The notes beneath the pieces were generated by a model. The model was not told where the DNA came from, did no database searches, and saw only the letters and a program-made list of their open reading frames with translations. Positions 7,576 through 40,315 of a stretch of 48,235 nucleotides of DNA are shown piece after piece (positions within the stretch are counted from its first letter, which is position 1; every line of letters starts with the position of its first letter). The translations under genes were made by a program, and so were the position numbers. The DNA is taken from contig JAGXFV010000013.1 in assembly GCA_024637095.1 (NCBI GenBank), positions 1 to 48,235 of the forward strand, written 5' to 3'. This DNA comes from Actinomycetes bacterium. GTDB lineage: Bacteria > Actinomycetota > Thermoleophilia > RBG-16-64-13.

Positions 7576-7889
7576 TTCCCAGCGCCTACGCCGTCGTAGG
7601 GCTGCTCTCGCTGATCGCCACGGCCGCAGCCCTGCTTCTTGCCGCCGTCTACCATCCGCCGGTGGAGGTCGAGCTGCGGGATTCGGCCTGGGCCCAATAT
7701 CGCTTCGGTTTTCCCGTCTACGCCCTGATCTTCCTGTCCTTCGACATGGAGATGATCTTCATGTATCCCTGGGCGGTCGTATTCGCGAACCTGGGCCTCG
7801 AGGCCTTCCTCGACATGCTCGTCTTCATCGCGATCCTGAGCGCGGGCATCACCTATGCCTGGAAGATGGGAGGACTGGAGTGGGAGTAG
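7572..7889 (+). CDS. nuoA: NuoA-like complex I subunit (divergent)
   Basis: A 105-residue protein with three transmembrane helices. The central and C-terminal part is typical of NuoA/ND3: FDMEMIFMYPWAVVF near residue 57 and ITYAWKMGGLEWE at the end. NuoA sits where the membrane arm meets the quinone module. Normally the loop after the first helix carries a YE(C/S)G motif that lies over the quinone site. Here that loop is short and reads PPVEVELRDSAWAQYRF, without the motif. The GTG start overlaps the preceding frame by GTGA. It begins a run of seven membrane-arm genes, and nuoH follows after 16 bp. Confidence 0.85.
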   Translation: MIPSAYAVVGLLSLIATAAALLLAAVYHPPVEVELRDSAWAQYRFGFPVYALIFLSFDMEMIFMYPWAVVFANLGLEAFLDMLVFIAILSAGITYAWKMGGLEWE

Positions 7890-7905
7890 CCAGGGCGGCC
7901 TTCGC

Positions 7906-8823: not shown

Positions 8824-8836
8824 GGGGGGTGGTCAA

Positions 8837-9646: not shown

Positions 9647-9647
9647 A

Positions 9648-9959
9648 GTGGCCGTACCGCTGACCGCCTACCTCGTGGTGGCGGCCCTCCTGTTCGCCAT
9701 CGGGGTCTACGCCGTCATCGCTCAACGCTCCGCGGTCATGATCCTGATGGGAATCGAGGTGCTGCTCAACGCGATCGGCCTCAACCTCATCGCCTTCTGG
9801 CGCTTCGTGAACCCGGGCGACTACTCCGCCCAGATCTTCGCCATCATCATCATCACAGTCGGAGCCGTTGAGATGGGAATCGGCCTCGCCATCATGCTGC
9901 TGCTCTACCGCAACCGGAGTTCGGTACAGGTGGATGATTATGCGGAGCTGCGGGGATGA
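9648..9959 (+). CDS. nuoK: NuoK-like complex I subunit
   Basis: A 103-residue, three-helix membrane protein of normal family length. It keeps the two membrane-embedded glutamates that carry protons in NuoK/ND4L: LMGIEVLLNAIGLNLIAFW and TVGAVEMGIGLAIMLLLYRN. The C-terminus SVQVDDYAELRG is also typical. The start is the GTG at 9648, placed 7 nt after AAGGAGGGGG; a longer frame from 9612 would overlap nuoJ and lacks a ribosome-binding site. Its stop overlaps the nuoL ATG by ATGA. Confidence 0.95.
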   Translation: MAVPLTAYLVVAALLFAIGVYAVIAQRSAVMILMGIEVLLNAIGLNLIAFWRFVNPGDYSAQIFAIIIITVGAVEMGIGLAIMLLLYRNRSSVQVDDYAELRG

Positions 9960-13416: not shown

Positions 13417-13423
13417 CCTCCGA

Positions 13424-14887
13424 ATGCCCTCGGAAACCGCAAGTTGTCTCGACCTTTGGGCCATCTATCCGGAGTTGGTCTTGGCCGGCCTCGGTCTGCT
13501 GCTGGTCCCAGTCGCCGCCTTCACCCACGGCCGAGGGCGCTGGCGCTACCTTCCTGGGGGCCTGGCCTTCACCGGGATCGTAGCCGCCCTCGGTCTTACC
13601 GCCCGTATGCTCGACTGGGAGTCGCAGACGGTATTCTGCAACACCTACGCCCTCGACGGCTTCGCCCACGTCTTCAAGCTGCTGCTGCTTTCCGGCGCCG
13701 GCATCGCCTTACTGGCGATACTCGCCCAGTTCCGGGGACACAACCAACTGGCCCACGCCCCCATGGCCCTGCTCTTCGCCACGCTTGGCGGGATGGGCCT
13801 CAGTTCGGCTCTGGACCTCGGCCTCATCGTTCTCTTCCTCCAGATGCTGAGCCTCCCTTCTTATGTGCTCGTAACCCTGGTCAGGACCGACCGAGCAAGC
13901 AACGAGGCTGTGCTCAAGTACTTCATCTACGCTGCTGCCGCGCTTGCGGTGATGGCTTACGGCCTCACCTTCTTGTACGGCATGACCGGCAGTCTCGAGT
14001 TGGGCAGCATTGGAGCGGCACTGGCAGGAGATGGCGATCAGGTGTGGATCGTTCTGGCGCTCGGCCTGATCCTGATCGGTTACGCCTTCGAGATGACTCT
14101 GGTCCCCTTCCACTTCTGGGCTCCCGACGTCTACTCAGGTGCCCCCGCGGCCGTGAGCGGCTTCGTGTCCGTGGTGCCCAAGATCGCGGGCTTCGCCGGC
14201 TTTCTGCGTTTTGTGCTTTATGCCCTGCCCGACGGGACCGGCGGTTGGCCGATGCTCGTCACGCTGCTCGCCGCCCTGACCATGACAGCGGGAAACCTGG
14301 TCGCTCTCCGACAAACCCACCTCAAGCGCCTACTCGCATACTCGAGCATCGCCCAAGCGGGCTACATCCTGATACCGGTGGCGGTCGCCCACGAGGTGGC
14401 GGGAGCTATGAGCGCGGTGGGCTACTATCTGGCGGCCTACCTCCTGATGAATCTGGCTGCCTTCTCCGTGGCCTCGCTCTGGGAGCGCACCCGGGGGACC
14501 GACCGGCTGGCCTCGCTGGCCGGAATGGGGTTCCGCCAGCCTCTGCCGGCCCTGGTCCTCGCCCTCGCCCTGCTCTCACTCGCGGGGATCCCCCCGCTGG
14601 CCGGCTTCGCGGGCAAGGTCTTTCTGCTCGAGGTGGGTCTCGAAGGCGATCTCACCTGGCTCGTGCTCCTGGCCGCGGCCAACATGGTCCTGGCCCTCTA
14701 CTACTACGTCGGCGTGATCGCAAAGTTGTACCTGGAGCGCCCCGCGCCCAACGAGGAGCCGGCGAAGGCAGGGAGCGGCGTACTCTACGTGGCAACCTTC
14801 GGGATCAGCACGCTTGGCACGCTGATCCTCGGCGTCTTCCCCTCACTGGGATTGCAACTCACCGATCTATTGCGTCGGCTGGTCTGA
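13424..14887 (+). CDS. nuoN: NuoN-like complex I antiporter subunit with altered key residues
   Basis: A 487-residue, roughly fourteen-helix protein. Family features include VPFHFWAPDVYSGAP, ALRQTHLKRLLAYSSIAQAG and LSLAGIPPLAGFAGK. At the place of the conserved glutamate (E133 in E. coli, normally in a LELISLP-like context) it has Gln140 in FLQMLSLPSYVLV. At the place of the conserved lysine (K217 in E. coli, normally FKLSLVPFH) it has Glu223 in AFEMTLVPFHFW. The later lysine (VPKIAG, K253) is kept. It ends the membrane-arm operon; the next gene lies 161 bp downstream. No strong Shine-Dalgarno precedes the ATG, which suggests coupling to nuoM. Confidence 0.92.
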   Translation: MPSETASCLDLWAIYPELVLAGLGLLLVPVAAFTHGRGRWRYLPGGLAFTGIVAALGLTARMLDWESQTVFCNTYALDGFAHVFKLLLLSGAGIALLAILAQFRGHNQLAHAPMALLFATLGGMGLSSALDLGLIVLFLQMLSLPSYVLVTLVRTDRASNEAVLKYFIYAAAALAVMAYGLTFLYGMTGSLELGSIGAALAGDGDQVWIVLALGLILIGYAFEMTLVPFHFWAPDVYSGAPAAVSGFVSVVPKIAGFAGFLRFVLYALPDGTGGWPMLVTLLAALTMTAGNLVALRQTHLKRLLAYSSIAQAGYILIPVAVAHEVAGAMSAVGYYLAAYLLMNLAAFSVASLWERTRGTDRLASLAGMGFRQPLPALVLALALLSLAGIPPLAGFAGKVFLLEVGLEGDLTWLVLLAAANMVLALYYYVGVIAKLYLERPAPNEEPAKAGSGVLYVATFGISTLGTLILGVFPSLGLQLTDLLRRLV

Positions 14888-14985
14888 GCGGACATGCGTG
14901 GCGCAAGACTCCTCGATCGAATAGCGAGACGCGAGTGCCCAACCCGTTTGCCCCAGCCTGCAGAGTTTACCAGACAAGAACGGGG

Positions 14986-15015
14986 CTGATCGTCGGCGCT
15001 CTCGACCGTTACAAT
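14986..15015 (+). promoter_or_regulatory. Candidate promoter for the glcD-glcF pair
   Basis: A TACAAT box (15010-15015) matches the -10 consensus in five of six positions. Eighteen bases upstream is CTGATC (14986-14991), a weak -35. The box lies 34 nt before the glcD ATG. If real, glcDF can be transcribed apart from the nuo operon, although no clear terminator separates them. Confidence 0.35.
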
Positions 15016-23301: not shown

Positions 23302-24579
23302 CTATTCCCCGCGATAAGACCGAGCCAGCAGCTGAACCGGATGAACCACCGTCGCTTCGGAGCCTCGCTCGCGTAGCCCGAAGCTCAGTTGCATGGTGCA
23401 GGTGGGGCAACTCGTGGCCACAAGCTCACTCTGGGTGGCTTCGACGTTGTCGATTTTGCGGTCCAGGATCTTGGTGGAGATATCGTGATGCATCACGCTA
23501 AAGCTGCCGGCGGAGCCGCAGCACCGATCGGCCTCGGCCATCTCGCGAAACTCGACGCCGGGGACCGCGCGCAGCACTGCGCGCGGCTGCTCGGTGACCT
23601 TCTGGGCCCGCGACAGGTGGCAGGGATCGTGATAGGTCACGGTGGCCTCGACCTGGTGCTCGCCGGGCTGGATTCCGGTGACTTCGACGAGAAAACGGCT
23701 GACATCGTAAACCGTGTCCGCCAGTTCCTTGGTGCGCGCGTGCTCAGGCGTACCCGCGTCGAACAGGTGCTGGTAGGTCTCGCCCAGCGTGGCCGAGCAG
23801 GAAGCGCAGTCGCTGACCACATAATCGGATCCGGCGTCGCTCAACGCGCGCAGGTTCTCGCGCGCAAGTTCTCGGGCGGTTTCCATGTCGCCGTAGGCCA
23901 AATGAGGCATCCCGCAACACTTGACGTCGTCGACGGTGACCACTTCGCAGCCGTTGCGGCTTAGTACCTCGACCGTGTCCTCGGCCACCTCGGGATAGAG
24001 CAGATTGGTGGCGCAGCCGAGGAAGTAGCTCACCCGGTACTTCTTCTCACCCTGCGCGGGCGTCACTTCGCGCAGGCGCTTTCGCCCCGGCCGGCCCGCG
24101 ACGTCGGGCAAGAGGCGCGCCGCCGCTCTGGCCTTCTCGGGCAGATGCTCGATCAGGTGGGTCTTATCGAGCATCGCGGCGGCTCCACTCTTCTGGTAGA
24201 GCCGCATCAGCGACGAAGCCGAGGCGTGCAGTCCCGGCCGGGTGAGGAACCCCCGCAGAAGAGCCCGCTGCATCAGGGGCTGACCCAGTGCCTCGGCCAG
24301 GTACTCCCGGGCGGCGACAAAGATCTCGTCGCTGATTACCCCGGAAGGACAGTCGACCGCGCAGGTCTTGCAGAGCAGGCAGGTGTAGAGGCGGTCCGCC
24401 AATTCCTCGCTTGGCTCGAGCTCACCGGTCTGCAGCGCTTTGACCAGCGCCAGACGCCCCCGCGGCGAGGCGGATTCACCACGGAGCTCATGAAACACCG
24501 GGCAGCTCGTGCGGCATTTGCCGCAGCGCACGCACTTCTTGAGCTCCTGCGCGAAATCGAGTTGATAGGTGGCCTCCAT
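23302..24579 (-). CDS. GlcF-like iron-sulfur/CCG-domain subunit (second copy)
   Basis: A 425-residue paralogue of the product of 16465-17871. It has two [4Fe-4S] motifs, CVRCGKCRTSCP at 16-27 and CLLCKTCAVDCP near 67, then CCG domains with KCCGMPHLAYGD, DCASCSATL, DPCHLSRAQ and CCGSAGSFSV, and a final CPTCTMQL. It takes electrons from the flavoprotein encoded just upstream (3-bp gap) and should pass them to a membrane carrier. The N-terminus is about 32 residues shorter than in the first copy. Substrate is set by the flavoprotein partner, probably lactate or glycolate. Confidence 0.9.
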   Translation of the reverse strand: MEATYQLDFAQELKKCVRCGKCRTSCPVFHELRGESASPRGRLALVKALQTGELEPSEELADRLYTCLLCKTCAVDCPSGVISDEIFVAAREYLAEALGQPLMQRALLRGFLTRPGLHASASSLMRLYQKSGAAAMLDKTHLIEHLPEKARAAARLLPDVAGRPGRKRLREVTPAQGEKKYRVSYFLGCATNLLYPEVAEDTVEVLSRNGCEVVTVDDVKCCGMPHLAYGDMETARELARENLRALSDAGSDYVVSDCASCSATLGETYQHLFDAGTPEHARTKELADTVYDVSRFLVEVTGIQPGEHQVEATVTYHDPCHLSRAQKVTEQPRAVLRAVPGVEFREMAEADRCCGSAGSFSVMHHDISTKILDRKIDNVEATQSELVATSCPTCTMQLSFGLRERGSEATVVHPVQLLARSYRGE

Positions 24580-24582
24580 TGG

Positions 24583-26013
24583 CTACTCCTCCGCCCAGAT
24601 CTTGCCGGGGTTCATGATTCCCTTGGGGTCCAGACAATCTTTTATCCGCCGCATCACAGTGAGCGCCGCGCCATGCTCTTCCTCCATAAAGGCTGCTCGG
24701 ACGAAGCCCACCCCATGCTCGCCGGTGGTGGCTCCGCCGATCTCCAAGGCCAGCCGGTGAATGTCCTCAGCCACGCGCTGGGCAGCCTCGACCTCCTCAG
24801 GTTTCAGCGGATCGATAATGGGTGCGGTGTGCATGTTGCCGTCGCCGATGTGGCCGTAGATGACCACCATTGTGTCGTGCTCGCGGCCGATCTCCTTGAT
24901 GCGGCGCAGAGCCTCAGGCACTTTGGCCATGGGAAAGCAGACATCTTCGCCGGCGAAGATGCGCGCGGCGTTGGGCTTGGCCCGGGCGGAAGCGGCGCCG
25001 ATGGCCTGCCGGCCCGTCCAGAGCTCTTTCATGCGCTTGGCATCCGTGGCCATCTCCACCGAGCCCGCCCGCCTCTTCGCGATCTCCTCGATCTGCCGGC
25101 CCTCGTCCTCGGTGGCGGCCTTGCTGCCGTTCACCTCAAAGAAGATGGCCGCCTCGACCTCGGGCAGCTTCAGTTGCGGCTTGAACAGGTTGACCGAGCG
25201 GATGGCTCCATCGTCCAAGATCTCAATGCCGGAAGGCAGTATGCCCGCTTTGAAGACCTCGAGCACCGATTGGGCCGCGTCTTCCAGGCGGTCGAAGTAT
25301 GCGACAACGATGGCGCGCGAAGGCGGTTTGGGCCAGACTTTGAGGCGCACCTCGGTGATCACGCCAAGGGTGCCTTCCGAGGCCAGGAAGAGTCCGGTGA
25401 GGTTGAGCCCGGAAACGCTCTTTAGAGCCTTGGACTTGAGCCCCCCGGTGCGGATCACCTGGCCGTCGGGCATGACCACCTCGAGCCCCAGCACGTACTG
25501 GCCGGTGTTTCCGTACTTGACCGCCCGAAGGCCGCTCGCGTTGTTCGCGACCATGCCACCGATGGTGGCCCACTCGGAGCTGCCCGGGTCAGGAGGGAAA
25601 TAGAGGCCGTAGGAGGAGATATGGTTGTTGAGTTCGGCATGAACCACCCCCGGGCGTACCACCACCTGCATGTTGACCTCGTCGACCTCGACGATGTCGT
25701 CCCAGGCGGAAAGATCCATGACTATACCGCCGCGGACGGCCACCGACCCCCCGGTTTGCCCCGAACCTGCCCCGCGCGGGGTGACCGCCACACCGTGCTG
25801 ATCGGCGTAGCGCATGATGCGCGAGACCTCTTCGGTACTTGTGGGCATCACCACCACTTCGGGGGTGAAGTTGTTGATCTGGGACACGAAGGAACTGTCG
25901 TAGGTGTAGGTCTTGAGATCCACATCCTTGTGGAACACCCGCTCCGGCCCGAGGAGCTTCACCATGTCGGTCACGAGGGCAGCGGCCGTGACCGTAGCGG
26001 TACCTGCAGCCAT
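24583..26013 (-). CDS. GlcD-like FAD-linked oxidase (second copy)
   Basis: A 476-residue FAD-binding type 4 oxidase, paralogous to 15049-16464. Motifs include TPRGAGSGQTGGSVAVRGG, YFPPDPGSSEWATIGGMVAN, ASEGTLGVITEV, IYGHIGDGNMHTA and TTGEHGVGF, and it ends GIMNPGKIW. The start at the ATG (26013) is 5 nt after AGGAG; a GTG two codons earlier lies too close to that site. With the adjacent CCG-domain protein it makes a two-subunit D-lactate/glycolate-type dehydrogenase. It converges on the GntP cluster, so a hydroxy-acid uptake and oxidation theme is plausible. Confidence 0.9.
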   Translation of the reverse strand: MAAGTATVTAAALVTDMVKLLGPERVFHKDVDLKTYTYDSSFVSQINNFTPEVVVMPTSTEEVSRIMRYADQHGVAVTPRGAGSGQTGGSVAVRGGIVMDLSAWDDIVEVDEVNMQVVVRPGVVHAELNNHISSYGLYFPPDPGSSEWATIGGMVANNASGLRAVKYGNTGQYVLGLEVVMPDGQVIRTGGLKSKALKSVSGLNLTGLFLASEGTLGVITEVRLKVWPKPPSRAIVVAYFDRLEDAAQSVLEVFKAGILPSGIEILDDGAIRSVNLFKPQLKLPEVEAAIFFEVNGSKAATEDEGRQIEEIAKRRAGSVEMATDAKRMKELWTGRQAIGAASARAKPNAARIFAGEDVCFPMAKVPEALRRIKEIGREHDTMVVIYGHIGDGNMHTAPIIDPLKPEEVEAAQRVAEDIHRLALEIGGATTGEHGVGFVRAAFMEEEHGAALTVMRRIKDCLDPKGIMNPGKIWAEE

Positions 26014-26216
26014 GCTCACTCCTGTTGGGAGACAATAGACTGGTCATCGATGATTATCCGGCGATACCGCGGGACCAGGCTGATCACCGCGCTCGACGAG
26101 CTCAGAAACGCTCGCAAAACGCCGAATATCCGTGCTGGCAAATATACAGTCAGACCCCGAATAAGGCCAGAAGGAGCCTTTAAGGTGGTTCACGGCTCTT
26201 CTCTTCCGGGCCGGGC

Positions 26217-26440
26217 TCAGAAGCTTCCCTCGGCCAGCTCCTTCTGCAGGGCGTTGTCCAAGGAGGGGTCGGCCACCAGCTCTTTTAAGGCAGGTTCTCT
26301 GCTCGAGCTCTTTCAGACTCCGGAGCTCCTGGGTCTTCATGCCTCATTAGAGGCTTTCCAGCGGTAGTAGGTTTGCTCGGAGACTCCGATCTCCTGGCAG
26401 ATCTTGCGAGGCCCGTGCTCTGGACTGATGGCGGCCTCCG
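26217..26440 (-). pseudogene. Decayed IS3-type OrfA transposase remnant
   Basis: Read on the minus strand, the first frame gives ISPEHGPRKICQEIGVSEQT followed by YYRWK, the helix-turn-helix of IS3-family OrfA. A second frame continues MKTQELRSLKELEQ, the leucine-zipper-like segment. A third frame gives LVADPSLDNALQKELAEGSF and a stop, which corresponds to the normal OrfA C-terminus. Two frame changes therefore break the gene. No OrfB, terminal inverted repeats or target duplication were found. The remaining parts of the 514-bp gap 26014-26527 (26014-26216 and 26441-26527) hold no recognisable gene; the first should contain the promoter for the second glcD. Confidence 0.72.
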
Positions 26441-26527
26441 CGCGCCCTCCACCGTCACCCGAGTCGCATCCGGAGGCAGACCGTCAGAATCCCGTGCCCT
26501 GCGTAGATGCTATAAGCAGTGGAGCGC

Positions 26528-27322
26528 CTACTCGAAAGCACCTGCCCTAAACTGCTCGATATAGCCTATTCCGAACTCGTCTAGGCCAAGAAGCGCAGCA
26601 GAAGCATAGTAAGCACCCATTAGGTCTCTGTCTAAAGGGTCAACCAAAAACGCATCCATACCTGCTGACATCAGCTGTACCAGGAATGTCCGGTTCAACA
26701 GCTTTCGGCTAGGTAAACCGAATGAGACGTTGCTCAAACCGGAAACCAAATGAGCGTCGGGATGGGCGCTCCTGATCGCATCGACTGCCCGCAATACTTC
26801 TCGACCTGCTGTTTCGCTTGTTGAAATCGGTTGAACCAGAGGGTCGAGAAAGATGTCATCCAGAGCAACACCAGCCTGACTTAGATCAGTGACAAGTCTA
26901 CCCGCGATCTTCACTCGGTCATCTGCGCTGGCGGGTACACCCCCATCATCCATACAAAGCGCAATTACTTTTGCTCCGTATCTGGTTGCCAGGGGGATTA
27001 TCTCCCGGAACCTTTCCGTTTCGGCCGAAACAGAGTTGATCATCGGGCTCTTCTCGCGGCTCGAAGCCAGGCCCAATTCTAGGACTTCCGGACTCGGGCT
27101 ATCTATACAAAGAGGGACCGATGCCACTTCCTGAACAATCTTGACCAGCCATCGCATGGCCTCCGACTCCTGGCCAATCATGCTTCCGCAGTTGACGTCT
27201 ATGTAATCCGCGCCTGCCTTTTCCTGTTCCTCCGCGAGCTCACGGATGAAAGAATCGTCGCGCGACTCGACTGCCATCCGGACAGCGTCTCTGCTGGTGT
27301 TTATCAATTCGCCGATCAACAT
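26528..27322 (-). CDS. MtgA/MtrH/AcsE-like methyltetrahydrofolate methyltransferase
   Basis: A 264-residue TIM-barrel protein of the pterin-binding (DHPS-like) group. It begins MLIGELINTSRDAVRMAVES and has ADYIDVNCGSMIGQESEAM near residue 38, VPLCIDSPSPEVLELGL near 69, SPMINSVSAE near 92, FLDPLVQPIST near 158 and HLVSGLSNVSFGLP near 192, all typical of methyl-THF:corrinoid methyltransferases. The expected reaction is transfer of a methyl group between a corrinoid protein and tetrahydrofolate. It is the last gene of the minus-strand methyl-transfer cluster, 192 bp downstream of the corrinoid-protein gene. Family is firm, direction in vivo is inferred. Confidence 0.87.
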   Translation of the reverse strand: MLIGELINTSRDAVRMAVESRDDSFIRELAEEQEKAGADYIDVNCGSMIGQESEAMRWLVKIVQEVASVPLCIDSPSPEVLELGLASSREKSPMINSVSAETERFREIIPLATRYGAKVIALCMDDGGVPASADDRVKIAGRLVTDLSQAGVALDDIFLDPLVQPISTSETAGREVLRAVDAIRSAHPDAHLVSGLSNVSFGLPSRKLLNRTFLVQLMSAGMDAFLVDPLDRDLMGAYYASAALLGLDEFGIGYIEQFRAGAFE

Positions 27323-27514
27323 TCTCGTGCGTTCCTCCTCTATTTCCTTCTCGGACGGTCACCCCCAATAGACATCGCACACCTCGGCAGTCGTTCCGAC
27401 TCAGCGTGAACCAAAAACGTGGGGTCGGGCATCTGCAAGTAGTTTCAGTCGCGGGAAGTTGTTGCGAAAAAGTCTCCGGTCGACTGGGCCGGCTGAATGG
27501 TGGGGATGCTCTCG

Positions 27515-28150
27515 CTAACTGCCCGCGAGGACCCGATTGGCCTGGCTGACCGCGGCACTTGCGTCAGGAGCATAGAAGTCCGCTCCTATCCGCTCAGCAA
27601 ACTCCTGAGTAACCGGAGCTCCGCCCACCCCAATCGCAATACTCCCCCTCAACCCTGCTGCCTCGATCGCCCGTATTGTTTCTTCCATGGCCGGCATCGT
27701 GGTGGTCAGTAGGGCGCTAAGGAGCACGATGTCGGGGTTTTGCTCTCTTATCGCATCGACGAATTTGCTTGGCGGCACATTTATGCCTAGGTCAACGACC
27801 TCATAGCCCCCGCCCTCCATTAACATGGCTACCAGATTTTTCCCAATGTCGTGCAGATCTCCCTTGACAGTACCGACAATTGCCTTCCCTTTGGTAACTG
27901 ACTGCTGAGTAGCTAGAAGCGGCTTGATCAGATCCAGACTCGCGTACATGGCCCGCGCCGCGATCATCATCTCAGAAACAAAAATCTCGCCAGCTTGAAA
28001 CTTCTCGCCGACCGTGTCCATCGCTGGTATAAGGCCTTCTTGAAGTATTTCTTGCGGCGGCGTTCCCTGGGCGAGAGCCGCTTCAGTCAATTCTTTCACC
28101 TTTGGGGCATTCCCTTTAGCAACTTGTTCTCTGATTTCCTCGTAAGACAA
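27515..28150 (-). CDS. Corrinoid (cobalamin-binding) methyl-carrier protein
   Basis: A 211-residue corrinoid protein of the MtgC/MtbC type. An N-terminal four-helix cap (about 1-85, with PAMDTVGEKFQAGEIFVSEM) precedes a Rossmann-like B12 domain with GTVKGDLHDIGKNLVAML; H100 in DLHDIG is the lower cobalt ligand. A later SALLTTTMPAMEETIRAI and IGVGGAPVTQEFAERIGAD complete the B12 pocket. I chose the TTG at 28150, 7 nt after GAGGGAGG; a longer frame to 28276 lacks a ribosome-binding site. It should shuttle the methyl group between the URO-D-type enzyme (29556-30695) and the methyl-THF methyltransferase. Confidence 0.93.
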   Translation of the reverse strand: MSYEEIREQVAKGNAPKVKELTEAALAQGTPPQEILQEGLIPAMDTVGEKFQAGEIFVSEMMIAARAMYASLDLIKPLLATQQSVTKGKAIVGTVKGDLHDIGKNLVAMLMEGGGYEVVDLGINVPPSKFVDAIREQNPDIVLLSALLTTTMPAMEETIRAIEAAGLRGSIAIGVGGAPVTQEFAERIGADFYAPDASAAVSQANRVLAGS

Positions 28151-28258
28151 GTTACAGCCTCCCTCGCCGAATGACTTTAAGTCCCTCTGGGACATACACA
28201 ATCCATAACTTGCGCCCTTTAGGACTCCACAGTGAGCGGATCCCAACAGGATCGGGGT

Positions 28259-28291
28259 AAAAGTGGGGCGCCCCACTCATAGGGGCGCCCC
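28259..28291 (-). terminator. Terminator downstream of the tctC-like gene
   Basis: On the minus strand two copies of the self-complementary GGGGCGCCCC (28282-28291 and 28265-28274), separated by TATGAGT, can form a strong hairpin followed by ACTTTTACC. It lies 26 bp after the substrate-binding protein's stop. Transcripts of the corrinoid and methyl-THF genes would then need readthrough or a promoter of their own between 28150 and 28259. Confidence 0.75.
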
Positions 28292-28316
28292 GTCAGACCA
28301 GGATCATCGGGACTGA

Positions 28317-29402
28317 CTATTGGGCCAGGTCTAACTGCTCCATTACGTCGGAGTAGGTCTCCATTTCGCTGTTGAAGAACTCCTGGAATTCATCCGGCCC
28401 AAGCAACTCTGACCGGTATTGAAGCATGTTCTGCTCCTCTACGCTGGTGTAAAGCGGATCTTCAACGGCCTCTTCGATCACATCAAACATGGTGTCTACG
28501 TACTGTTGGTCAGTTCCCTCCTTGAAGGCGAACCCGCGCCAGCGTCCAAGAGTGACGTCAATGTCAAGCTCTAGAGCCGTCGGTACATCTTCCAGTACCG
28601 GGAGTCGCTCTTCGCTGAAGAGCACCAGGGGAGTGACTTCACCCGATTCGATTAGGGCTCTCATCGGTCCATACTCTTCGTACATCAAATCCGTGTGACC
28701 GCCGAGAACCGCAGCTTGTGCTTCAGCACTGGATTCAAAGGGCACTACTTCAAGTTCTGCTTCGGAACGGAGGTTCCACAGGCCCACCAGCACTTCGTCA
28801 AAGCCGGCTGCGCCGGTAACTCCGATAGACAAATCGCCAGGATTCTCCCGTGCGAATTCAATGAGCTGTTCGACAGACTCATATTCGCTGTCGGGACCCA
28901 CGAAGAACAATCCCTGGTCATACTGAACGCGGGCAACGGGAAGGAACTGAGTGGCATCGATCCGGCCCATCGCGTGATTAATGACTTCTTCAGGACCTAT
29001 GGCCATCATCGTGTAACCATCGGTGGGACGGTTGAAAAACTCGGTCGCGGCAGGTACTCCGCCGCCCCCGGTGACCGAAATGCCGACGATGGACTGGTCC
29101 GTTATCTTGGCCATAGGCATCCCGATGGCCCTGATGAAAAGATCGGTACCGCCACCGGGTCCGAATTGGTTGATCACTTCGACGGTCCGGGAAGGATAGT
29201 CCGACTCGGCGGCTTCTCCACCGGCAGCCTCGGTATCCTCCGTAGCGGTGTCCTCCGTAACGGTGTCGTCCGTCGTCGTTTCCACGGTCACATCGGTTTC
29301 GGTTTCTTCGGTGGTCGTTTCATCATCACCGCAGCCGAACAATGCAAAAGCAAAGACCGCTAGCAGCCCAACCAAAAGCAGTGATAGAACTTTCTTACTC
29401 AA
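28317..29402 (-). CDS. TctC-like substrate-binding lipoprotein of a tripartite tricarboxylate transporter
   Basis: A 361-residue lipoprotein. The signal peptide ends in a lipobox at C24 (ALFGC), followed by a 45-residue Thr/Glu/Asp-rich linker. The mature domain is a Bug/TctC type, with PSRTVEVINQFGPGGGTDLF near 71, GGGGVPAATEFFNRPTDGYT near 112 and YEEYGPMRALIESGEVTPLV near 241. It captures a carboxylate outside the cell for the TctA/TctB channel encoded upstream. The start is TTG at 29402, 5 nt after AGGAGG. It is unusual that a methyltransferase gene lies between tctA and tctC; this ties substrate capture to demethylation. Confidence 0.88.
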   Translation of the reverse strand: MSKKVLSLLLVGLLAVFAFALFGCGDDETTTEETETDVTVETTTDDTVTEDTATEDTEAAGGEAAESDYPSRTVEVINQFGPGGGTDLFIRAIGMPMAKITDQSIVGISVTGGGGVPAATEFFNRPTDGYTMMAIGPEEVINHAMGRIDATQFLPVARVQYDQGLFFVGPDSEYESVEQLIEFARENPGDLSIGVTGAAGFDEVLVGLWNLRSEAELEVVPFESSAEAQAAVLGGHTDLMYEEYGPMRALIESGEVTPLVLFSEERLPVLEDVPTALELDIDVTLGRWRGFAFKEGTDQQYVDTMFDVIEEAVEDPLYTSVEEQNMLQYRSELLGPDEFQEFFNSEMETYSDVMEQLDLAQ

Positions 29403-29555
29403 CGCTTCCTCCTGTTCAAGATTCCCACAAGCAACCCGATCCCTGGCACCTCGTTTGCAGCTTACCCCCTCGTGTTTGCACCACTGGTGATATCTGGATC
29501 CGCCTCAATCCGGAGCCCCCCCTACCAGGGCGACCCTCGATAAGCAGCGAGGCGG

Positions 29556-30695
29556 CTAGTATCCACCGTATTCATGGACGGCCTCCACCATTGCGACAAT
29601 ATTCTCGGGGGGGACCTCAGGGCGGATATTATGCACGGCGGCGACCACGTAGCCGCCCCCCTCGCCCAAGTCCTCAATACGTCGCCGGACCTCATCCTTC
29701 ACCTGCTTCGGCCCCTGGAAGGGCAGCACGTCATGGGAGTCAATTCCCCCCCAAAAACTGAGGCGCCCTGCAGCGAGCTTCTTAAGCTCCTTTGTGTCCA
29801 TCCCCTTGGCCGAAACCTGTACTGGATTCAGGATATCAACGCCTACATCAACTAGGTCTTCGATAAACGCGACCACTGAACCGCAGCTATGGTAAAGAAT
29901 CTTGGCATCCGTCCCTGATTTGATTACCTCAAAGAGTTTTTCCTGTCGAGGCTTGAGCAGTTCCCGGTAGACGTCGGGTGACATCATAGGTCCAGTTTGC
30001 ATGCCGAGATCATCAGCCACGTACACTACGTCTACCAGGTCACCAACCTCTTTAAGGATCGCCCGAGTGCGTCCCAAAAACACCTCTAAAACCCGGTCCA
30101 TGATCGCTTCGATTAGGCGAGGATTGAGTAGCAAATCCATCATATACTCGGAGTATCCTCGCAAGAAATAGGACTGGGTGTGGATCTGCATCGCTAAGTT
30201 TGCGATAACTGCCTTGTCACTTCTGCGCAGCTCCAGAGCACGGTCTCTCGCGCTACCTAAAGCCCTTACTTCTTCTGGATCCGGCCAGCTCATTGCTTTG
30301 ACGTCTTCGATAGATACGTCCGGGCCAAAGAGAGGCGAATCTACTATCTCGAAATTATCGACCCCCTCAGGCCTCTCCCAGGTCATCCCCCACTCGTCAC
30401 GTATCCGTTCTCTCTCCTGGAGGGAGGTCTGCCTCGTCCAGGCGTCAGGATCGTTAATGATCAGCATACGGGCGTCTACCCCGAGAGCATCCTGTACCTC
30501 GGGATCGACTTCTGCCACCAGAGAACGACCGCGGGCGATTTTTACCTCGTCATTAGTCTTAATGCCCAGATGCTTCTTGAGCTTGTCGTATCCAACCTTG
30601 TGTATGCTCGTGACCATCGATCCACCGAAGTCCACGGGAACACGGTCGGGCTCACGATGTGATATGGCGGCAAGTACTCGTTCCCTGCTATTCAT
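29556..30695 (-). CDS. Uroporphyrinogen decarboxylase-family (MtaA/CmuA/O-demethylase-like) methyltransferase
   Basis: A 379-residue URO-D superfamily protein that is unlikely to be HemE. It begins NSRERVLAAISHREPDRVPV and has YVADDLGMQTGPMMSPDVYR near 225. H269 and C271 in ILYHSCGSVV form the zinc-binding His-x-Cys of corrinoid methyltransferases. The C-terminus reads AAVHNIRPEVPPENIVAMVE. Relatives include the MtaA/MtbA/CmuA group and acetogen O-demethylase subunits that move a methyl group from substrate to a corrinoid protein. I infer it is the substrate-specific methyltransferase (MT1) of this cluster. The ATG follows TAAGGAGTGGGAACGT. Confidence 0.88.
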   Translation of the reverse strand: MNSRERVLAAISHREPDRVPVDFGGSMVTSIHKVGYDKLKKHLGIKTNDEVKIARGRSLVAEVDPEVQDALGVDARMLIINDPDAWTRQTSLQERERIRDEWGMTWERPEGVDNFEIVDSPLFGPDVSIEDVKAMSWPDPEEVRALGSARDRALELRRSDKAVIANLAMQIHTQSYFLRGYSEYMMDLLLNPRLIEAIMDRVLEVFLGRTRAILKEVGDLVDVVYVADDLGMQTGPMMSPDVYRELLKPRQEKLFEVIKSGTDAKILYHSCGSVVAFIEDLVDVGVDILNPVQVSAKGMDTKELKKLAAGRLSFWGGIDSHDVLPFQGPKQVKDEVRRRIEDLGEGGGYVVAAVHNIRPEVPPENIVAMVEAVHEYGGY

Positions 30696-30728
30696 ACGTT
30701 CCCACTCCTTACAACCGCCTAAAAACGG

Positions 30729-32219
30729 CTAACACGTCTTCCTGTAGGTACGATACTGATAATAGAATCCATATATCAAGGAAAGAGCACTCAGAAGTAG
30801 CAACCCTCCCGCGATTGGCCTGCTAATGATTTCTATCATATCGAAATTGTTCAAAATCATGGCTCGTCTGAGGTTGACTTCCGCTATAGGGCCTAGAACT
30901 AGACCGATAATGAGCGGAGCCAAGGGATAGTCGAGCTTTAGAAGTAGAAAACCTAAGGCCCCAAAGGCTGCCATCACGGCGAGGTCGAAGTAGTTGCTTC
31001 GCAAAGCAAAGACCCCTGTCGTGCAGAGAACGACTATGCTGGGACCGACATAGGCGTAGGGCAATCGTAGGATCTTCGCAAAGTATTTGGCTATGTGGAT
31101 TCCCGCTACGATCATCAGAACGTTGGCAAGCAGCATCCCAATGAAGACGGAATACACAAGCTCCTTGTTCTGGACCAGTAGAAGCGGGCCCGGAACAATG
31201 CCGTGGATCGTGAGCCCCCCAATCATCACGGCAGTGGTCGCGCTCCCGGGAATGCCTAAGGCGAGCAGCGGCACCATCGCACCGCCGACCGCGGCATTAT
31301 TCGCGGCTTCAGGCGCGGCAATTCCTTCTGGGGTCCCGGTACCAAACGCTTCCGGCTTCTTTGACCATCTAACCGCCTCACTGTAGCTAATGAACGCTGC
31401 CGTGGTCGCTCCGACTCCCGGAAGGGTTCCGATCAACGTGCCAATCACTGACGATCTCAGAAGGGTGATTCTCAACGCCCATACTTCTCGCAGCCTGGGA
31501 AGTTTGGTCGAAACCACCCCACCGCCCAACAAGTCTCCGTCAGACGTGCCTCCTACTCGGGCGAGAACTTCAGACAGTGCGAAAAGGCCTATCAGAGCTG
31601 GAATGAAGCTGATACCGGTCAGGAGGGAATCGTTGCCGAAGGTGAAGCGGCCAAAACCAGTCAGGGGATCAATACCAACGGTGGCCAGACCGAGACCCAG
31701 GAATCCAGCGATGAGCGCTTTCCAGATGGACTTGCTGCCAATAGAGGCAATAGCCGTAATTCCAAGAATCGCCAAAGCAAAGTACTCAGAGGGGCCGAAG
31801 GCAAGGGCGAAATCGGCGAGAGGAGGAGCCAGCAGAATCAACGCTATAGTACCGAATATCCCGCCGATGGCCGAGGAACCAAGCGCGAGGCCCAAAGCCA
31901 TGCCTGCCTGCCCCTTCTTGGCCATCGGATATCCGTCCAAACTGGTGCATGAGGCTTCCGGACTCCCCGGGGTGTTGAACAAAATCGCGGAAATAGAGCC
32001 CCCGAATGTGGATCCCACGTATACGGCCCCCAGCATCACAAGCCCTTCAATTGGTTCGAAGACAAACGTGAAAGGAATGAGAAGAGCCACACCGACAACA
32101 CCAGTGAGTCCGGGGGTAGCGCCAAACAGTATGCCCCATATAACTCCCAAAATTAGAAGAATAAAGTTAAAGGGGTTGCTTAGCATATATTCCGAGGCTG
32201 AGACGAAACCCTCAATCAT
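30729..32219 (-). CDS. TctA-like large membrane subunit of a tripartite tricarboxylate transporter
   Basis: A 496-residue membrane protein with about twelve hydrophobic segments. TctA signatures are GVIWGILFGATPGLTGVVGV near 23, YVGSTFGGSISAILFNTPGS near 67, TSLDGYPMAKKGQAGMALGL near 88 and EGIAAPEAANNAAVGGAMVP near 300, with LALGIPGSATTAVMIGGLTI following. It forms the channel of the TTT secondary importer and drives carboxylate uptake with an ion gradient. The ATG follows AGGTGGAGG. It lies between tctB and the URO-D-type gene (33-bp gap) and is co-transcribed with them. Confidence 0.93.
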   Translation of the reverse strand: MIEGFVSASEYMLSNPFNFILLILGVIWGILFGATPGLTGVVGVALLIPFTFVFEPIEGLVMLGAVYVGSTFGGSISAILFNTPGSPEASCTSLDGYPMAKKGQAGMALGLALGSSAIGGIFGTIALILLAPPLADFALAFGPSEYFALAILGITAIASIGSKSIWKALIAGFLGLGLATVGIDPLTGFGRFTFGNDSLLTGISFIPALIGLFALSEVLARVGGTSDGDLLGGGVVSTKLPRLREVWALRITLLRSSVIGTLIGTLPGVGATTAAFISYSEAVRWSKKPEAFGTGTPEGIAAPEAANNAAVGGAMVPLLALGIPGSATTAVMIGGLTIHGIVPGPLLLVQNKELVYSVFIGMLLANVLMIVAGIHIAKYFAKILRLPYAYVGPSIVVLCTTGVFALRSNYFDLAVMAAFGALGFLLLKLDYPLAPLIIGLVLGPIAEVNLRRAMILNNFDMIEIISRPIAGGLLLLSALSLIYGFYYQYRTYRKTC

Positions 32220-32269
32220 GGACTAAGCCTCCACCTAATATATTTCTAAACACATGGCCACGCAATCCA

Positions 32270-32788
32270 CTAGTAGAACCATAGGCTGAAGTCACGAAAT
32301 ATCCCTTCTCCCCGCGGGAGAGGCAAATTAAGAACCCGCGTGAACAACAGCATAAGCCCTGAGGTGAACAACAGTGGAAACAACACGGTCGCAATTTTAT
32401 GTCGGACGCCGAGAAGTGCGGTTGCGAGAAGTAGGAAAATAAAAGTCGCCACGATAAAGCCCAGTAGCTGGAACGCGTACAGATAACTTAGGGTCAACGC
32501 TACCAGTATCACGTTCTTACCCATCAAAAAGCCGGTAACTCCTGGGGACTTAGGACTTCGGGTCCCGCCGGATCTAGTCCCGAGATAGAGGCGTAGTTGG
32601 CGAACTGACGAAACGAGGATCACAGCTGCCACTAAGCCGATCACAACCAAAATGATTTTCGGCCAAAAGTCACTATCCACATCCCCGTATCTCTCGAAGG
32701 GAGGGAAGGAATCGGCGACAAACCAAAGATATATCGCCGCCACCATGACCACGGCAGCGAAGATCGTATTGCCCACTGCCTTAAACAA
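32270..32788 (-). CDS. TctB-like small membrane subunit of a tripartite tricarboxylate transporter
   Basis: A 172-residue protein with four transmembrane helices. The N-terminal helix is followed by DSDFWPKIILVVIGLVAAVI, the usual TctB signature, and a second half has LSYLYAFQLLGFIVATFIFL. A C-terminal positive/amphipathic tail ends in FSLWFY. The start is TTG at 32788, 6 nt after TAGGAGGGG. It is the first gene of the methyl-transfer/TTT operon. Sequence is poorly conserved in this family, but context makes the call secure. Confidence 0.85.
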   Translation of the reverse strand: MFKAVGNTIFAAVVMVAAIYLWFVADSFPPFERYGDVDSDFWPKIILVVIGLVAAVILVSSVRQLRLYLGTRSGGTRSPKSPGVTGFLMGKNVILVALTLSYLYAFQLLGFIVATFIFLLLATALLGVRHKIATVLFPLLFTSGLMLLFTRVLNLPLPRGEGIFRDFSLWFY

Positions 32789-32811
32789 GAATGTCCCCTC
32801 CTAAGTCCCGA

Positions 32812-32979
32812 TCACTTGGCCTCGGCCTGTTGAGCCCACCGTCGCATCCAGTACTCGAGCATCGCTCGTCGGGAAACCCCTTTCACGCGGCTGCCCCTAC
32901 CCCGAACGAGCTTCCGCCCACCCAAGAGTGTTAGCCCAGCAGGGCCCTCCGGAATGCGGTTCTCAATTTCCTTGGGGTT
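32812..32979 (-). CDS. Unassigned short coding fragment upstream of tctB
   Basis: An open stretch on the minus strand between a TAG (32980-32982) and TGA (32812-32814). Its end reads VSRRAMLEYWMRRWAQQAEA plus K, and it contains IPEGPAGLTLLGGRKLVRG. Composition is protein-like (Arg-rich amphipathic helix) and GC-rich third positions appear. No ATG with a ribosome-binding site is visible; a TTG within it would give only about 37 residues. It may be the 3' remnant of a gene truncated when the island formed. I do not recognise the family. Confidence 0.3.
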   Translation of the reverse strand, partial: NPKEIENRIPEGPAGLTLLGGRKLVRGRGSRVKGVSRRAMLEYWMRRWAQQAEAK

Positions 32980-33037
32980 CTATAAGGAAATTTGTCGCAA
33001 TGGACCTATCCACCTAAATTCCCAAAGGGCTCGCCGA

Positions 33038-33089
<52 letters not shown>

Positions 33090-33290
33090 TTCCTAACATG
33101 CCTTTATGAAATTCGCAAGCAATATTGGCTCCACTGCGGGTAGAGCATACTGCCGAGATTATCTGTAGTTCGTGGAAGGAGAGTGCAGCCATCGTCCACG
33201 TATTTGCTTTTAGTCAACCTTGATTGTTTCTCCTAATAGGAATATGGCGATGAAGTTGGGGGGAGACCGGGCGGATTCTGGGGGGATTTA

Positions 33291-37014: not shown

Positions 37015-38346
37015 ATGCCGCAGATAGAACTGGAACATGTGTATAAGGTTTTCGGACGCCACGCGGACGAGGCTCTGAAGCTCCTGCAGCAGGGGGTCGG
37101 GCGCGACGAGGTCCAGGAGAAGACCGGTGCCGTAGGCGCCGTCATCGACGCCTCGTTCGGAGTCGAGCAGGGCGAGATCTTCGTAGTGATGGGGCTTTCC
37201 GGCTCAGGCAAATCCACAGTGGTGCGGACCATTAATCGCCTATTCGAGCCCACCGCCGGCACCGTTCGCATCGACGGCGAGAACATCACCCAGATGGATC
37301 CCAAAGAGTTGCGTCGGGTGCGCGCCGAGAAGATCAGCATGGTCTTCCAGCACTTCGCCCTCTTTCCTCACCGGACTGTGCTCGAGAATGCGGCTTGGGG
37401 ACTCGAGGTCCAGAAAGTCGAGAGCGATGAGCAGCGCAGGAGGGCCGAGGAATCCCTGGATCTCGTGGGGCTTGGCGGCTGGGGAGACTCCTATCCGGGA
37501 CAGCTGTCAGGAGGGATGCAGCAACGAGTGGGGCTCGCGCGGGCTCTGGCCACCAATGCCGACATCCTGCTGATGGACGAGGCCTTTAGCGCCCTCGACC
37601 CCCTGATCCGGCGAGAGATGCAGGACCAGCTCGTCGACCTGCAAGAGAGCCTGCACAAGACCATCGTCTTCATCACGCACGACCTGAACGAGGCCATGCG
37701 GCTGGGCGATCGGATAGCCATGATGAAGGATGGACAGATCGTGCAGATCGGCACAGGCGAGCAAATCCTCAGCGATCCGGCCAACGATTACGTCGCCTCC
37801 TTCGTCAGTGACGTCGACCGGGCGCGCTTTCTCACCGCCGAAGCGGTGATGGAAGAGCCCATAGCCGTGGTGCTGAAACGTGAGGGGCCGGCCGCCGCCA
37901 TGCGCGAGATGAGGCAGCGTCAGGTGTCGGGCCTTTTCATTCTGGGCCCCGGACGCAGGCTGATTGGCGCCACCCTGGACGACGAGGTGATCGAGGCCGT
38001 CCGCCGCGGTGATGTCTCCTTGGACAACATCACCCACACCGAGATTCCCGCGGTCGCGCCCGAGACGCCGCTGGCCGAGCTCTTCATGCCCTCGGCCAAG
38101 AGCATCCTGCCGCTACCCGTAGTCAAGGACGGCAGGCTCCTGGGCGTGATACCCCGGGTAACGCTGTTGGCCGCGGTCGCTCGAACAGGGACGGCGTCTC
38201 GGGATCTGAAGGAGATCCAGATCCCGTCGGAAAAACCGGGCGCCGAAGGCCGCGACCCGGACGGCGAGGGCTCCGACCCGGACGTCGAGGGCCCCGGTCA
38301 AGAAGACAACGGGGACGCGAGAGAAGCGGAGATACCTCATGCCTGA
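37015..38346 (+). CDS. proV: Glycine betaine/proline ABC transporter ATPase with CBS domains
   Basis: A 443-residue ATPase of the ProV/OpuAA type. It begins IELEHVYKVFGRHADEALKL, has Walker A GLSGSGKSTVVRTINRLFEP, the Q-loop VFQHFALFPHRTV, signature QLSGGMQQRVGLARAL, Walker B ILLMDEAFSALDP and H-loop ITHDLNEAMRLG. Two CBS modules (about 275-400) follow; in OpuA these sense ionic strength. A 40-residue acidic tail with repeated DPD/DVEGP segments ends the protein and overlaps the proW start by 8 bp. Osmosensing by the tail is inference. Confidence 0.95.
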   Translation: MPQIELEHVYKVFGRHADEALKLLQQGVGRDEVQEKTGAVGAVIDASFGVEQGEIFVVMGLSGSGKSTVVRTINRLFEPTAGTVRIDGENITQMDPKELRRVRAEKISMVFQHFALFPHRTVLENAAWGLEVQKVESDEQRRRAEESLDLVGLGGWGDSYPGQLSGGMQQRVGLARALATNADILLMDEAFSALDPLIRREMQDQLVDLQESLHKTIVFITHDLNEAMRLGDRIAMMKDGQIVQIGTGEQILSDPANDYVASFVSDVDRARFLTAEAVMEEPIAVVLKREGPAAAMREMRQRQVSGLFILGPGRRLIGATLDDEVIEAVRRGDVSLDNITHTEIPAVAPETPLAELFMPSAKSILPLPVVKDGRLLGVIPRVTLLAAVARTGTASRDLKEIQIPSEKPGAEGRDPDGEGSDPDVEGPGQEDNGDAREAEIPHA

Positions 38347-39187
38347 GCTCTACCGCATACCCTTGGGCGAATGGGTCGATCGTTTGGTTGACTGGCTAAC
38401 GGCGAATCTGACCGGTTTCTTCGACATCGTCAGCGACGTGCTGGCCTGGTCAGTCAGTCATCTGGAGGATCTGCTCCTCCTTCCGCCCGCCCTCGTGTTG
38501 ACGACGCTGCTGGCTCTCTTCGCCTGGTGGATCCGCGGACGCGGTTTTGCCGTATTCACTTTCCTGGCCTTCGCCCTGATCGAAAGTATGAACCTCTGGG
38601 AACGATCAATGTCGACGCTTTCCCTGGTTCTCGTGGCAAGCTCTATTGCCGTGGCCGTCGGCCTTCCTGTCGGTATCGCCGCGGCCCGCAACGAGACGGT
38701 CAGCACGACCGTGCGTCCGGTGCTGGACTTCATGCAGACCATGCCGGCATTCGTCTACCTGATCCCCGCAATCTTCTTCTTTGGCATCGGACAGGTCCCG
38801 GGAGTGGTCTCCACCCTGGTATTCTCGATGCCGCCGGCGGTTCGGTTGACCGAACTCGGCATCCGCCAGGTGGACGAAGAGGTGGTGGAGGCGGGTGAAG
38901 CCTTCGGTGCGACCCCCCGCCAGATTCTGACTAAGGTGCAGATCCCGCTGGCGCTCCCCACCATCATGGCCGGAGTGAATCAGGTCATCATGCTGGCCCT
39001 TTCCATGGTGGTCATCGCAGGCATCGTCGGCGCGGGCGGTCTCGGAGGAGCGGTCTTCATCGCGATTACCCGCTTGAATGTCGGACTTGGCTTCGAGGGC
39101 GGCTTGGCGGTAGTGATCCTGGCCATCTTCTTGGATCGAGTGACCTCGGCCCTCAGCGACCGGGCAACGCTCTACAAGCACACGTAA
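38339..39187 (+). CDS. proW: Glycine betaine/proline ABC transporter permease
   Basis: A 282-residue permease with six or seven hydrophobic segments. ProW/OpuAB signatures are VDWLTANLTGFFDIVSDVLA at the start, GIAAARNETVSTTVRPVLDF near 122 and MQTMPAFVYLIPAIFFFGIG. The EAA loop, VDEEVVEAGEAFGATPRQIL, contacts the ATPase. It imports compatible solutes with ProV and the downstream binding lipoprotein. Start ATG at 38339 overlaps proV. Confidence 0.95.
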   Translation: MPELYRIPLGEWVDRLVDWLTANLTGFFDIVSDVLAWSVSHLEDLLLLPPALVLTTLLALFAWWIRGRGFAVFTFLAFALIESMNLWERSMSTLSLVLVASSIAVAVGLPVGIAAARNETVSTTVRPVLDFMQTMPAFVYLIPAIFFFGIGQVPGVVSTLVFSMPPAVRLTELGIRQVDEEVVEAGEAFGATPRQILTKVQIPLALPTIMAGVNQVIMLALSMVVIAGIVGAGGLGGAVFIAITRLNVGLGFEGGLAVVILAIFLDRVTSALSDRATLYKHT

Positions 39188-39204
39188 TAGAACACTCGGC
39201 GTAA

Positions 39205-39262
39205 CGCCCCGGCACAGGGGCGGCGCCAATTGATAGAGGCTTCTTCCGGCCCAAGGGGCCGG
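39205..39262 (+). other. Two hairpins between proW and the substrate-binding gene
   Basis: CGCCCC (39205-39210) pairs with GGGGCG (39217-39222), and CCGGCCC (39246-39252) pairs with GGGCCGG (39256-39262) over a 3-nt loop. They lie in the 102-bp gap before the lipoprotein gene. Such structures often stabilise mRNA ends or tune expression of the binding protein; that role is inferred. Confidence 0.45.
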
Positions 39263-39289
39263 ATGTTATGCAAACAAACAAGGAGGAAC

Positions 39290-40315
39290 ATGAGCGTGAC
39301 AAGTATTCGAAAGATGATGGGCCGGCAGTGGCTGCCCTTCCTCATCCTCACCTTGCTTCTCAGCCTCTCACTGCTGGCTATCGGCTGCGGTGACGACGAG
39401 GACACGACCGATACCACCGAGGCGGCGGATAGCACCGAAGCCACCGACGCTGAGGCGACAGAAGCCACCGACGCTGAGGCGACAGAAACCACCGAAGCCG
39501 ACGCGGAAGCCGCAGCCGGCGAAGGCGGAAGCATTCACATCGGCCTCATCCCCTGGGACGAGGACATCGCCGCCACCTATCTCTGGAAGAGCATCCTGGA
39601 GGATGAAGGCTACACGATCGAAATCACCCAGCTCGACGTGGCCCCGGTCTATTCCGGGATCGCCCAGGGCGACATGGATCTCTTCCTGGATGCTTGGCTA
39701 CCCGCCACCCACGGGGACTACTGGGCAGAGTACGGCGATCAGCTCGAAGACCTGGGAGTCTGGTACGACAACGGCCTGCTGACCCTGGCGGTGCCCGAGT
39801 ACGTCGACGCCCAGACGATTGCGGACCTCGAGGGCCAAGCCGACACCTTCGGCGGACAGATCATCGGGATCGAGCCCGGCTCCGGTCTGATGCGCGTAAC
39901 TCGGGACGAAGCGATGCCCGGTTACGGCCTCGAGGATTACACCCTGGTCGAAGGCAGCACTCCGGCCATGCTGGCGGAACTCGAGAGGGCGACCAACAAC
40001 GAGGAGCCCATCGTCGTTACCCTGTGGCACCCCCACTGGGCCTACGCCGCCTACCCCATCCGTGATCTTGAAGATCCGGAAGGCCTGATGGGCGAGGCCG
40101 AGGAGATGCACGCAGTCGCCCGGGAAGGTTTCTCAGAGGAGTTCCCGCAGGTGGCCGAGTGGCTGGCCAACTTCGAGATGGATGACGATCAACTCGGCAC
40201 GCTCGAGGACCTGATCATCAATCAGTTCGATCAAGGCCAAGAAGACCAGGCCGTGGAGGAGTGGCTGTCCGATTCCGCGAATCAGGAGTTGGTGAACGGC
40301 TGGCTCGGCAATTAG
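39290..40315 (+). CDS. proX: Glycine betaine/choline-binding lipoprotein (OpuAC/ProX-like)
   Basis: A 341-residue lipoprotein. The signal peptide leads to a lipobox cysteine at C33 (LLAIGC), then a 45-residue Asp/Glu/Thr/Ala linker with two copies of EATDAEAT. The mature domain begins SIHIGLIPWDEDIAATYLWK and contains FLDAWLPATHGDYW and VVTLWHPHWAYAAYPI, which supply the Trp/Tyr box that holds trimethylammonium groups. The start is the ATG at 39290, 4 nt after AAGGAGG; the longer frame to 39230 lacks a site. It completes the ProVWX importer. Confidence 0.93.
   Translation: MSVTSIRKMMGRQWLPFLILTLLLSLSLLAIGCGDDEDTTDTTEAADSTEATDAEATEATDAEATETTEADAEAAAGEGGSIHIGLIPWDEDIAATYLWKSILEDEGYTIEITQLDVAPVYSGIAQGDMDLFLDAWLPATHGDYWAEYGDQLEDLGVWYDNGLLTLAVPEYVDAQTIADLEGQADTFGGQIIGIEPGSGLMRVTRDEAMPGYGLEDYTLVEGSTPAMLAELERATNNEEPIVVTLWHPHWAYAAYPIRDLEDPEGLMGEAEEMHAVAREGFSEEFPQVAEWLANFEMDDDQLGTLEDLIINQFDQGQEDQAVEEWLSDSANQELVNGWLGN

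Follow-up and report, generated by a model that had tools for sequence, protein, structure and literature searches.

For methoxy-aromatics, methylamines, betaines and haloalkanes, corrinoid-dependent demethylation is well documented. We know of no genes assigned to the anaerobic demethylation of aliphatic methoxy-carboxylates or O-methyl sugar acids, substrates exemplified by methoxyacetate, which acetogens convert to glycolate according to older physiology, and by the 4-O-methylglucuronate of xylan. Here the analysis was directed at a contig of 48,235 nucleotides (JAGXFV010000013.1, assembly GCA_024637095.1; hereafter the window) from an anaerobic actinobacterium of the Thermoleophilia, in which the three genes of a tripartite tricarboxylate transporter (TTT) are interleaved with those of a corrinoid methyl-transfer pathway. 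The six genes lie on the minus strand in the order tctB-tctA-URO-D methyltransferase-tctC-corrinoid protein-methyl-tetrahydrofolate (THF) methyltransferase.

Among described systems, the three-component aromatic O-demethylases MtvABC, OdmABCD, VdmABCD and MtoABCD, which need an activase, also combine a substrate:corrinoid methyltransferase (MTI) of the UroD superfamily with a corrinoid protein and a second methyltransferase (MTII) that serves a folate-type carrier (PMC8630106, PMC13222342). The window differs in that its MTI apparently belongs to another subclade with another motif, its cluster includes no activase, and a TTT transporter stands where major facilitator superfamily genes adjoin the archaeal mto operon. 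The chloromethane system CdmBCA of Acetobacterium dehalogenans likewise runs from a UroD-superfamily MTI through a corrinoid protein and an MTII to THF; CdmB acts on haloalkanes, its crystal structure is without zinc and no transporter is mentioned (PMC13222342), whereas the window MTI retains an H-x-C...H motif. The corrinoid protein and MTII of the glycine betaine system (MtgB/MtgC/MtgA) fall in the same families as those of the window, but Mtg has an MttB-type MTI and transporters of the betaine/choline/carnitine type (PMC9768040). Searches of a PubMed Central subset, outside which most subscription papers lie, turned up no paper that links TTT transporters to corrinoid demethylation; the author of the earlier note on this DNA likewise knew of no such system. 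The three-component scheme itself is known; what is new is its pairing with a dedicated TTT importer, and the part of real interest is the URO-D clade to which the window protein belongs.

The block is best read, with a probability of roughly 0.6, as a self-contained catabolic cassette for the uptake and corrinoid-dependent O-demethylation of a methoxylated carboxylate, with transfer of the methyl group to THF. Family calls were made with Pfam cut-offs, which all six products exceeded, and with NCBIfam models at their own cut-offs, bearing out the gene order and positions given in the earlier note (Table 1). The TTT system is complete, and the closest relatives of its TctA, at 53% identity, are from Bacillota. 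TctC carries a lipobox (LFGC) and a GPGGGTD loop and matches the TTT-binding-protein structures 25hk and 4x9t as well as terephthalate binding proteins; it is the predicted carboxylate-binding subunit of the transporter. The corrinoid protein is composed of a cap and a B12-binding domain with the D-x-H-x-x-G motif present as GDLHDIG; of the models, it comes nearest to those for MtgC (glycine betaine), below whose cut-offs it stays, and a start at TTG 28150 is more likely than one at GTG 28276 because homologues begin at about residue 44–47 and GGGAGG lies upstream. The MTII scored 325 bits against a cut-off of 259 with PRK07535, with 4o0q as best match in the PDB (E 1.1e-55).

Table 1. Positions of the six genes and of associated features in the window.
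Feature	Position	Strand	Evidence or remark
tctB, small TTT membrane subunit	32270..32788	-	PF07331, 62 bits, E 6.6e-17
tctA, large TTT membrane subunit	30729..32219	-	PF01970, 506 bits, E 1.2e-151
URO-D superfamily methyltransferase, proposed MTI	29556..30695	-	PF01208, 101 bits
tctC, lipoprotein solute-binding TTT subunit	28317..29402	-	PF03401, 65 bits, E 1.1e-17
Corrinoid protein, MtgC/MtbC-like	27515..28150 (revised start)	-	PF02310/PF02607, 100/77 bits
Corrinoid:THF methyltransferase (MTII), AcsE/MtgA-like	26528..27322	-	PF00809 (Pterin_bind), 96 bits; PRK07535
Island holding all six genes	26176..33288		Missing from a same-genus genome (G043)
Decayed IS3-type transposase OrfA remnant, island 3' edge	26200..26450	-	HTH_Tnp_1 (PF01527), E 1.5e-6, hand-joined reading
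Terminator- or attenuator-like perfect 10-bp GC hairpin followed by ACUUUU, between tctC and corrinoid gene	28265..28291	-	RNA fold
GlcF-like and GlcD-like 2-hydroxy-acid oxidase genes, native, outside island	23302..26019	-	About 90% nucleotide identity in G043

Comparison with a genome of the same genus, G043, revealed that the block is an insertion. Blastn against two loci of G043 (L353 and L354) showed collinearity with the window on either flank; there a match to window positions 26139–26175 gives way, a few bases on, to a match beginning at 33289, the 7.1 kb in between being missing. No match in G043 was found to the window URO-D protein at 1e-40, nor to the window TctA at 1e-80, and the best relative there of the corrinoid protein shares 44% identity. 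The GC content of the island is 54.5% against 63.9 ± 2.2% in the flanking 1-kb windows, and GC at third codon positions (GC3) is 0.56–0.61 in the island genes against 0.77–0.83 in neighbouring genes. Because the block is missing from the collinear genome, is low in GC and GC3 and has a transposase remnant at its edge, the simplest account is that the six genes were gained together horizontally, and recently, as one island. Import and corrinoid methyl transfer therefore form one heritable unit, so that the single functional unit proposed in the earlier note stands as regards inheritance, whereas a single transcript is doubtful (see below). The boundary repeats gave no clear target-site duplication; tandem GGTAAC/GGCAAC hexamers occur at 33038–33085, barely within the 5' edge. 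The neighbouring GlcD/GlcF genes were rejected as members of the cassette, being present in G043 where the island is missing; as native genes they cannot testify to its purpose.

The proposed MTI scored 73.5 bits with the MtaA/CmuA model TIGR01463 (cut-off 235.4) and 27 bits with the HemE model (cut-off 303), and thus resembles MtaA/CmuA more. The candidate identity as the haem enzyme HemE was rejected on this score and because a separate gene on contig C15 reaches 474 bits, which is likely the hemE of this genome. The AlphaFold2 model of the window protein (mean predicted local distance difference test 92.5) has a URO-D fold, with the methylcobalamin:coenzyme M methyltransferase of Methanosarcina mazei (4ay7) as best Foldseek match (E 2.5e-16). 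VIA-align of the model with 4ay7 gave Z 28.6 and a root-mean-square deviation of 3.1 over 313 aligned positions, but true URO-D enzymes tied with it at Z of about 29; the fold alone therefore cannot separate the functions, and it is the corrinoid partners that do. The 80 best relatives in GTDB genomes share 38–48% identity and come from many phyla. A tree of 144 URO-D proteins places the window protein in a 61-member clade (support 0.998), in which H269, C271 (as H269-x-C271) and H355 are invariant across 36 aligned members. The resulting motif, HSCG...HN, differs from the MtaA type (HICG...C), which has Cys in place of His at the third position, and from the FAEG and HSDG/HTDG types. Proteins of the FAEG type adjoin Moorella corrinoid and MTII genes and, by this genomic context, may be MtvB-like; sequence alone did not prove the URO-D proteins of loci L217 and L218 to be MtvB.

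Several members of the window clade are partnered with corrinoid proteins, either adjacent or fused, contrary to the refutation envisaged in the earlier note, a clade without corrinoid interaction. In three loci from Chloroflexota (L118, L124 and L117) a single reading frame encodes both the URO-D and the corrinoid domain, and the fusions of L118 and L124 adjoin sugar ATP-binding cassette (ABC) transporter genes and creatininase-like genes. Across 100 genes immediately beside 56 members of the clade, the most frequent families were parts of sugar-type ABC transporters, FGGY sugar kinases, B12-binding proteins and 2-hydroxyacid dehydrogenases. It can tentatively be suggested, at somewhat less than even odds, that the HSCG...HN clade, spread over many phyla, comprises hitherto unrecognised corrinoid demethylases for aliphatic O-methyl hydroxy-acids, O-methyl sugar acids and O-methyl sugars, served by swappable TTT, tripartite ATP-independent periplasmic (TRAP) or ABC uptake systems, the window representing a mobile TTT version. 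Two further matches to the URO-D family in the same genome (C24:34146-35123 and C48:8333-9163) each contain one in-frame stop (TGA and TAG, respectively) and may be pseudogenes, assembly errors or cases of recoding.

Parts of the cassette recur in other genomes. The gene-order search covered the 80 best URO-D loci and about 645 genomes (396 from the same phylum and 249 from Bacillota) queried with TctA and URO-D. At a Bacillota locus (L309) the order is corrinoid-MTII-URO-D, with gaps of 20 and 32 bp and a URO-D protein of the window clade, and a corrinoid-URO-D-DctPQM series comes further along; in Desulfosporosinus (L215) the order is MTII-URO-D-corrinoid-DctP, and in a Desulfobacteraceae locus (L128) DctPQM-URO-D-corrinoid. 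L309 and L215 resemble the window in joining the methyl-transfer trio to a carboxylate transporter, with 42% identity for the MTI of L309 and 65% and 50% for the corrinoid protein and MTII of L215, but the transporter is TRAP rather than TTT, the gene order differs and the L215 URO-D protein is of the HSDG subclade. Direct linkage of tctBAC to a URO-D gene, as in the window, was found at four loci. In Moorella mulderi (L212) and two Bacillota loci (L302, L304) the order is LarA-tctB-tctA-tctC-URO-D, followed by AP_endonuc_2 and 3-hydroxyisobutyrate-dehydrogenase-like proteins, the LarA being of the lactate-racemase family. In the fourth (L303, G496:C2:955000-974900), tctBAC, URO-D, a fructuronate-reductase-like gene and the mannonate dehydratase gene uxuA lie on one strand; this cluster is a candidate for the uptake and demethylation of 4-O-methylglucuronate. 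At a fifth locus (L301), tctCBA and a URO-D gene of the window clade are separated by about 4 kb, in which sugar-acid genes were recognised by eye. In the genome of the window itself, Liv-type ABC transporter genes are directly followed by an HSDG-type URO-D gene and a corrinoid protein gene (54% identity to that of the window) on contig C48, a second transporter and methyltransferase unit. Since TTT, TRAP and Liv-type ABC transporters all occur beside URO-D units, the transporter type is exchangeable, and the common theme pairs the import of an oxygenated compound, often an acid, with apparent URO-D methyl transfer. The expectation that the neighbouring genes are conserved together thus holds for sub-parts, namely the trio with TRAP and TTT with URO-D, and not for the full order. 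At another locus (L254, G484:C21), two MttB-family genes (family read by eye) lie about 1 kb from TTT genes, on the opposite strand (TctA 51% to that of the window).

In the pathway proposed for the cassette, the periplasmic lipoprotein TctC would capture the methylated carboxylate and TctAB would import it. The URO-D protein would then act as MTI: a metal site, with H269, C271 and H355 as its probable ligands, would activate the bond between the methyl group and a heteroatom, most probably the ether bond of an O-methylated aliphatic hydroxy or sugar acid. Co(I) of the corrinoid protein would accept the methyl group and the AcsE/MtgA-like MTII would pass it to THF, the resulting methyl-THF entering the chromosomal Wood-Ljungdahl pathway; the demethylated acid would go to host metabolism, where the native GlcD/GlcF pair could serve. 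Acetyl-CoA synthase and methylene-THF reductase are present in the genome, with Wood-Ljungdahl genes on other contigs, so that methyl-THF has an outlet, consistent with the direction of methyl transfer (corrinoid, then THF) predicted in the earlier note. As that note had also observed, no activase is adjacent, nor is one of the RACo type encoded within the island; three RACo-type activases are encoded on other contigs, one of them adjoining a gene like that of formate-THF ligase (read by eye), so that corrinoid accidentally oxidised could be reactivated in trans. Also present are a methanol system that includes MtaB and, elsewhere in the genome, MttB genes. An ether is preferred over an N-methyl group because of the type of URO-D protein and its genomic context, and less strongly over a thioether, while clade context alone favours an aliphatic over an aromatic acid. 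A mobile cassette for uptake and methyl transfer, together with the related Moorella-group operons with uronate genes, makes the question of the genes for aliphatic ethers directly testable.

Several observations weigh against reading the block as one dedicated demethylation cassette. The exact six-gene order, which the earlier note had proposed to look for in other genomes, was seen nowhere else in the search, and at 13 further loci with similar corrinoid proteins no adjacent TTT genes or URO-D gene of the same clade were found. The TTT-linked URO-D proteins of L212, L302, L303 and L304 belong to another subclade (HTDG, 26% identity to the window protein) and have no adjacent corrinoid or MTII genes. 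A corrinoid gene is nearby in 8 of the 61 members of the window clade, the majority thus being without one, and to our knowledge no member has been characterised. The tctB, tctA and URO-D genes are closely packed (tctB-tctA 50 bp, tctA-URO-D 33 bp), but wider gaps follow (URO-D-tctC 153 bp, tctC-corrinoid about 166 bp, corrinoid-MTII 192 bp). The hairpin after tctC (z = -5.0, with none of 200 shuffles equally stable), although not listed by a simple terminator scan, suggests together with the gaps of 150–190 bp that the block yields more than one transcript; the likely explanations are several transcripts or an attenuator placed behind a binding protein that is highly expressed. Promoter-like sequences were no commoner than in shuffles, and near the block no RNA family, cobalamin riboswitches included, reached the gathering threshold.

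Other substrates were considered for the same genes. It is unlikely that the machinery acts on a methoxylated aromatic acid of the vanillate or syringate type taken up through the TTT transporter: the UroD-superfamily O-demethylases MtvB, OdmB, VdmB and MtoB do use methoxylated aromatics (PMC13222342; PMC8630106) and terephthalate TTT binding proteins are among the TctC homologues, but the window protein sits in the HSCG...HN clade, apart from the FAEG type of the Moorella corrinoid-MTII operons, the island is without aromatic-degradation genes and the genes around members of the clade belong to sugar and hydroxy-acid metabolism. An S-methylated carboxylate of the 3-methylmercaptopropionate or dimethylsulfoniopropionate type, with the URO-D protein as a thioether or sulfonium:corrinoid methyltransferase, is likewise improbable. 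The H-x-C motif is reminiscent of the thiolate-binding zinc site of MtaA/MtbA, yet where the MtaA type has Cys as third ligand, the window protein has His; and although thiol-linked methyltransferases occur in the UroD superfamily, type 1 mlp clusters are proposed for methyl-sulfur compounds (PMC10418091) and one relative (L078) adjoins a homocysteine-methyltransferase-like gene (read by eye), the clade context is largely that of sugar and hydroxy-acid metabolism, not sulfur.

Acquisition of two unrelated pieces, one a TTT operon and the other a methyltransferase trio, lying side by side with no common substrate, would fit the hairpin separating tctC from the corrinoid gene and the lack of a conserved order elsewhere, but is quite improbable given that the URO-D gene is embedded among the TTT genes at a distance of 33 bp from tctA, that all genes share one island and one GC and GC3 signature, and that independent TTT plus URO-D and TRAP plus trio clusters exist. 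The characterised N-demethylating MTIs known to us are of the MttB, MtmB or MtbB types; the island holds none of these, MttB genes are already present elsewhere in the genome, and the OpuA-type glycine betaine ABC transporter at 37015–40315 is native and collinear in G043, so that an N-methylated acid (a betaine or methylated amino acid) is very unlikely despite the MtgC-like corrinoid protein. The methylated carboxylate envisaged in the earlier note, perhaps methoxylated or N-methylated, is retained here as most likely methoxylated.

Two further observations concern the window and its genome. The region 6949–15005, carrying Complex-I-like antiporter, NuoH- and NuoJ-type genes, is also missing from the otherwise collinear G043 but has a native-like GC content. 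On contig C2 (about 94000–106700), one cluster contains two MttB-family genes and genes for histidine ammonia-lyase, a corrinoid protein, a HutI-like amidohydrolase, an FTCD-like protein, urocanase and a methyl-THF methyltransferase, and looks like a system for the demethylation of hercynine (histidine betaine) feeding histidine breakdown.

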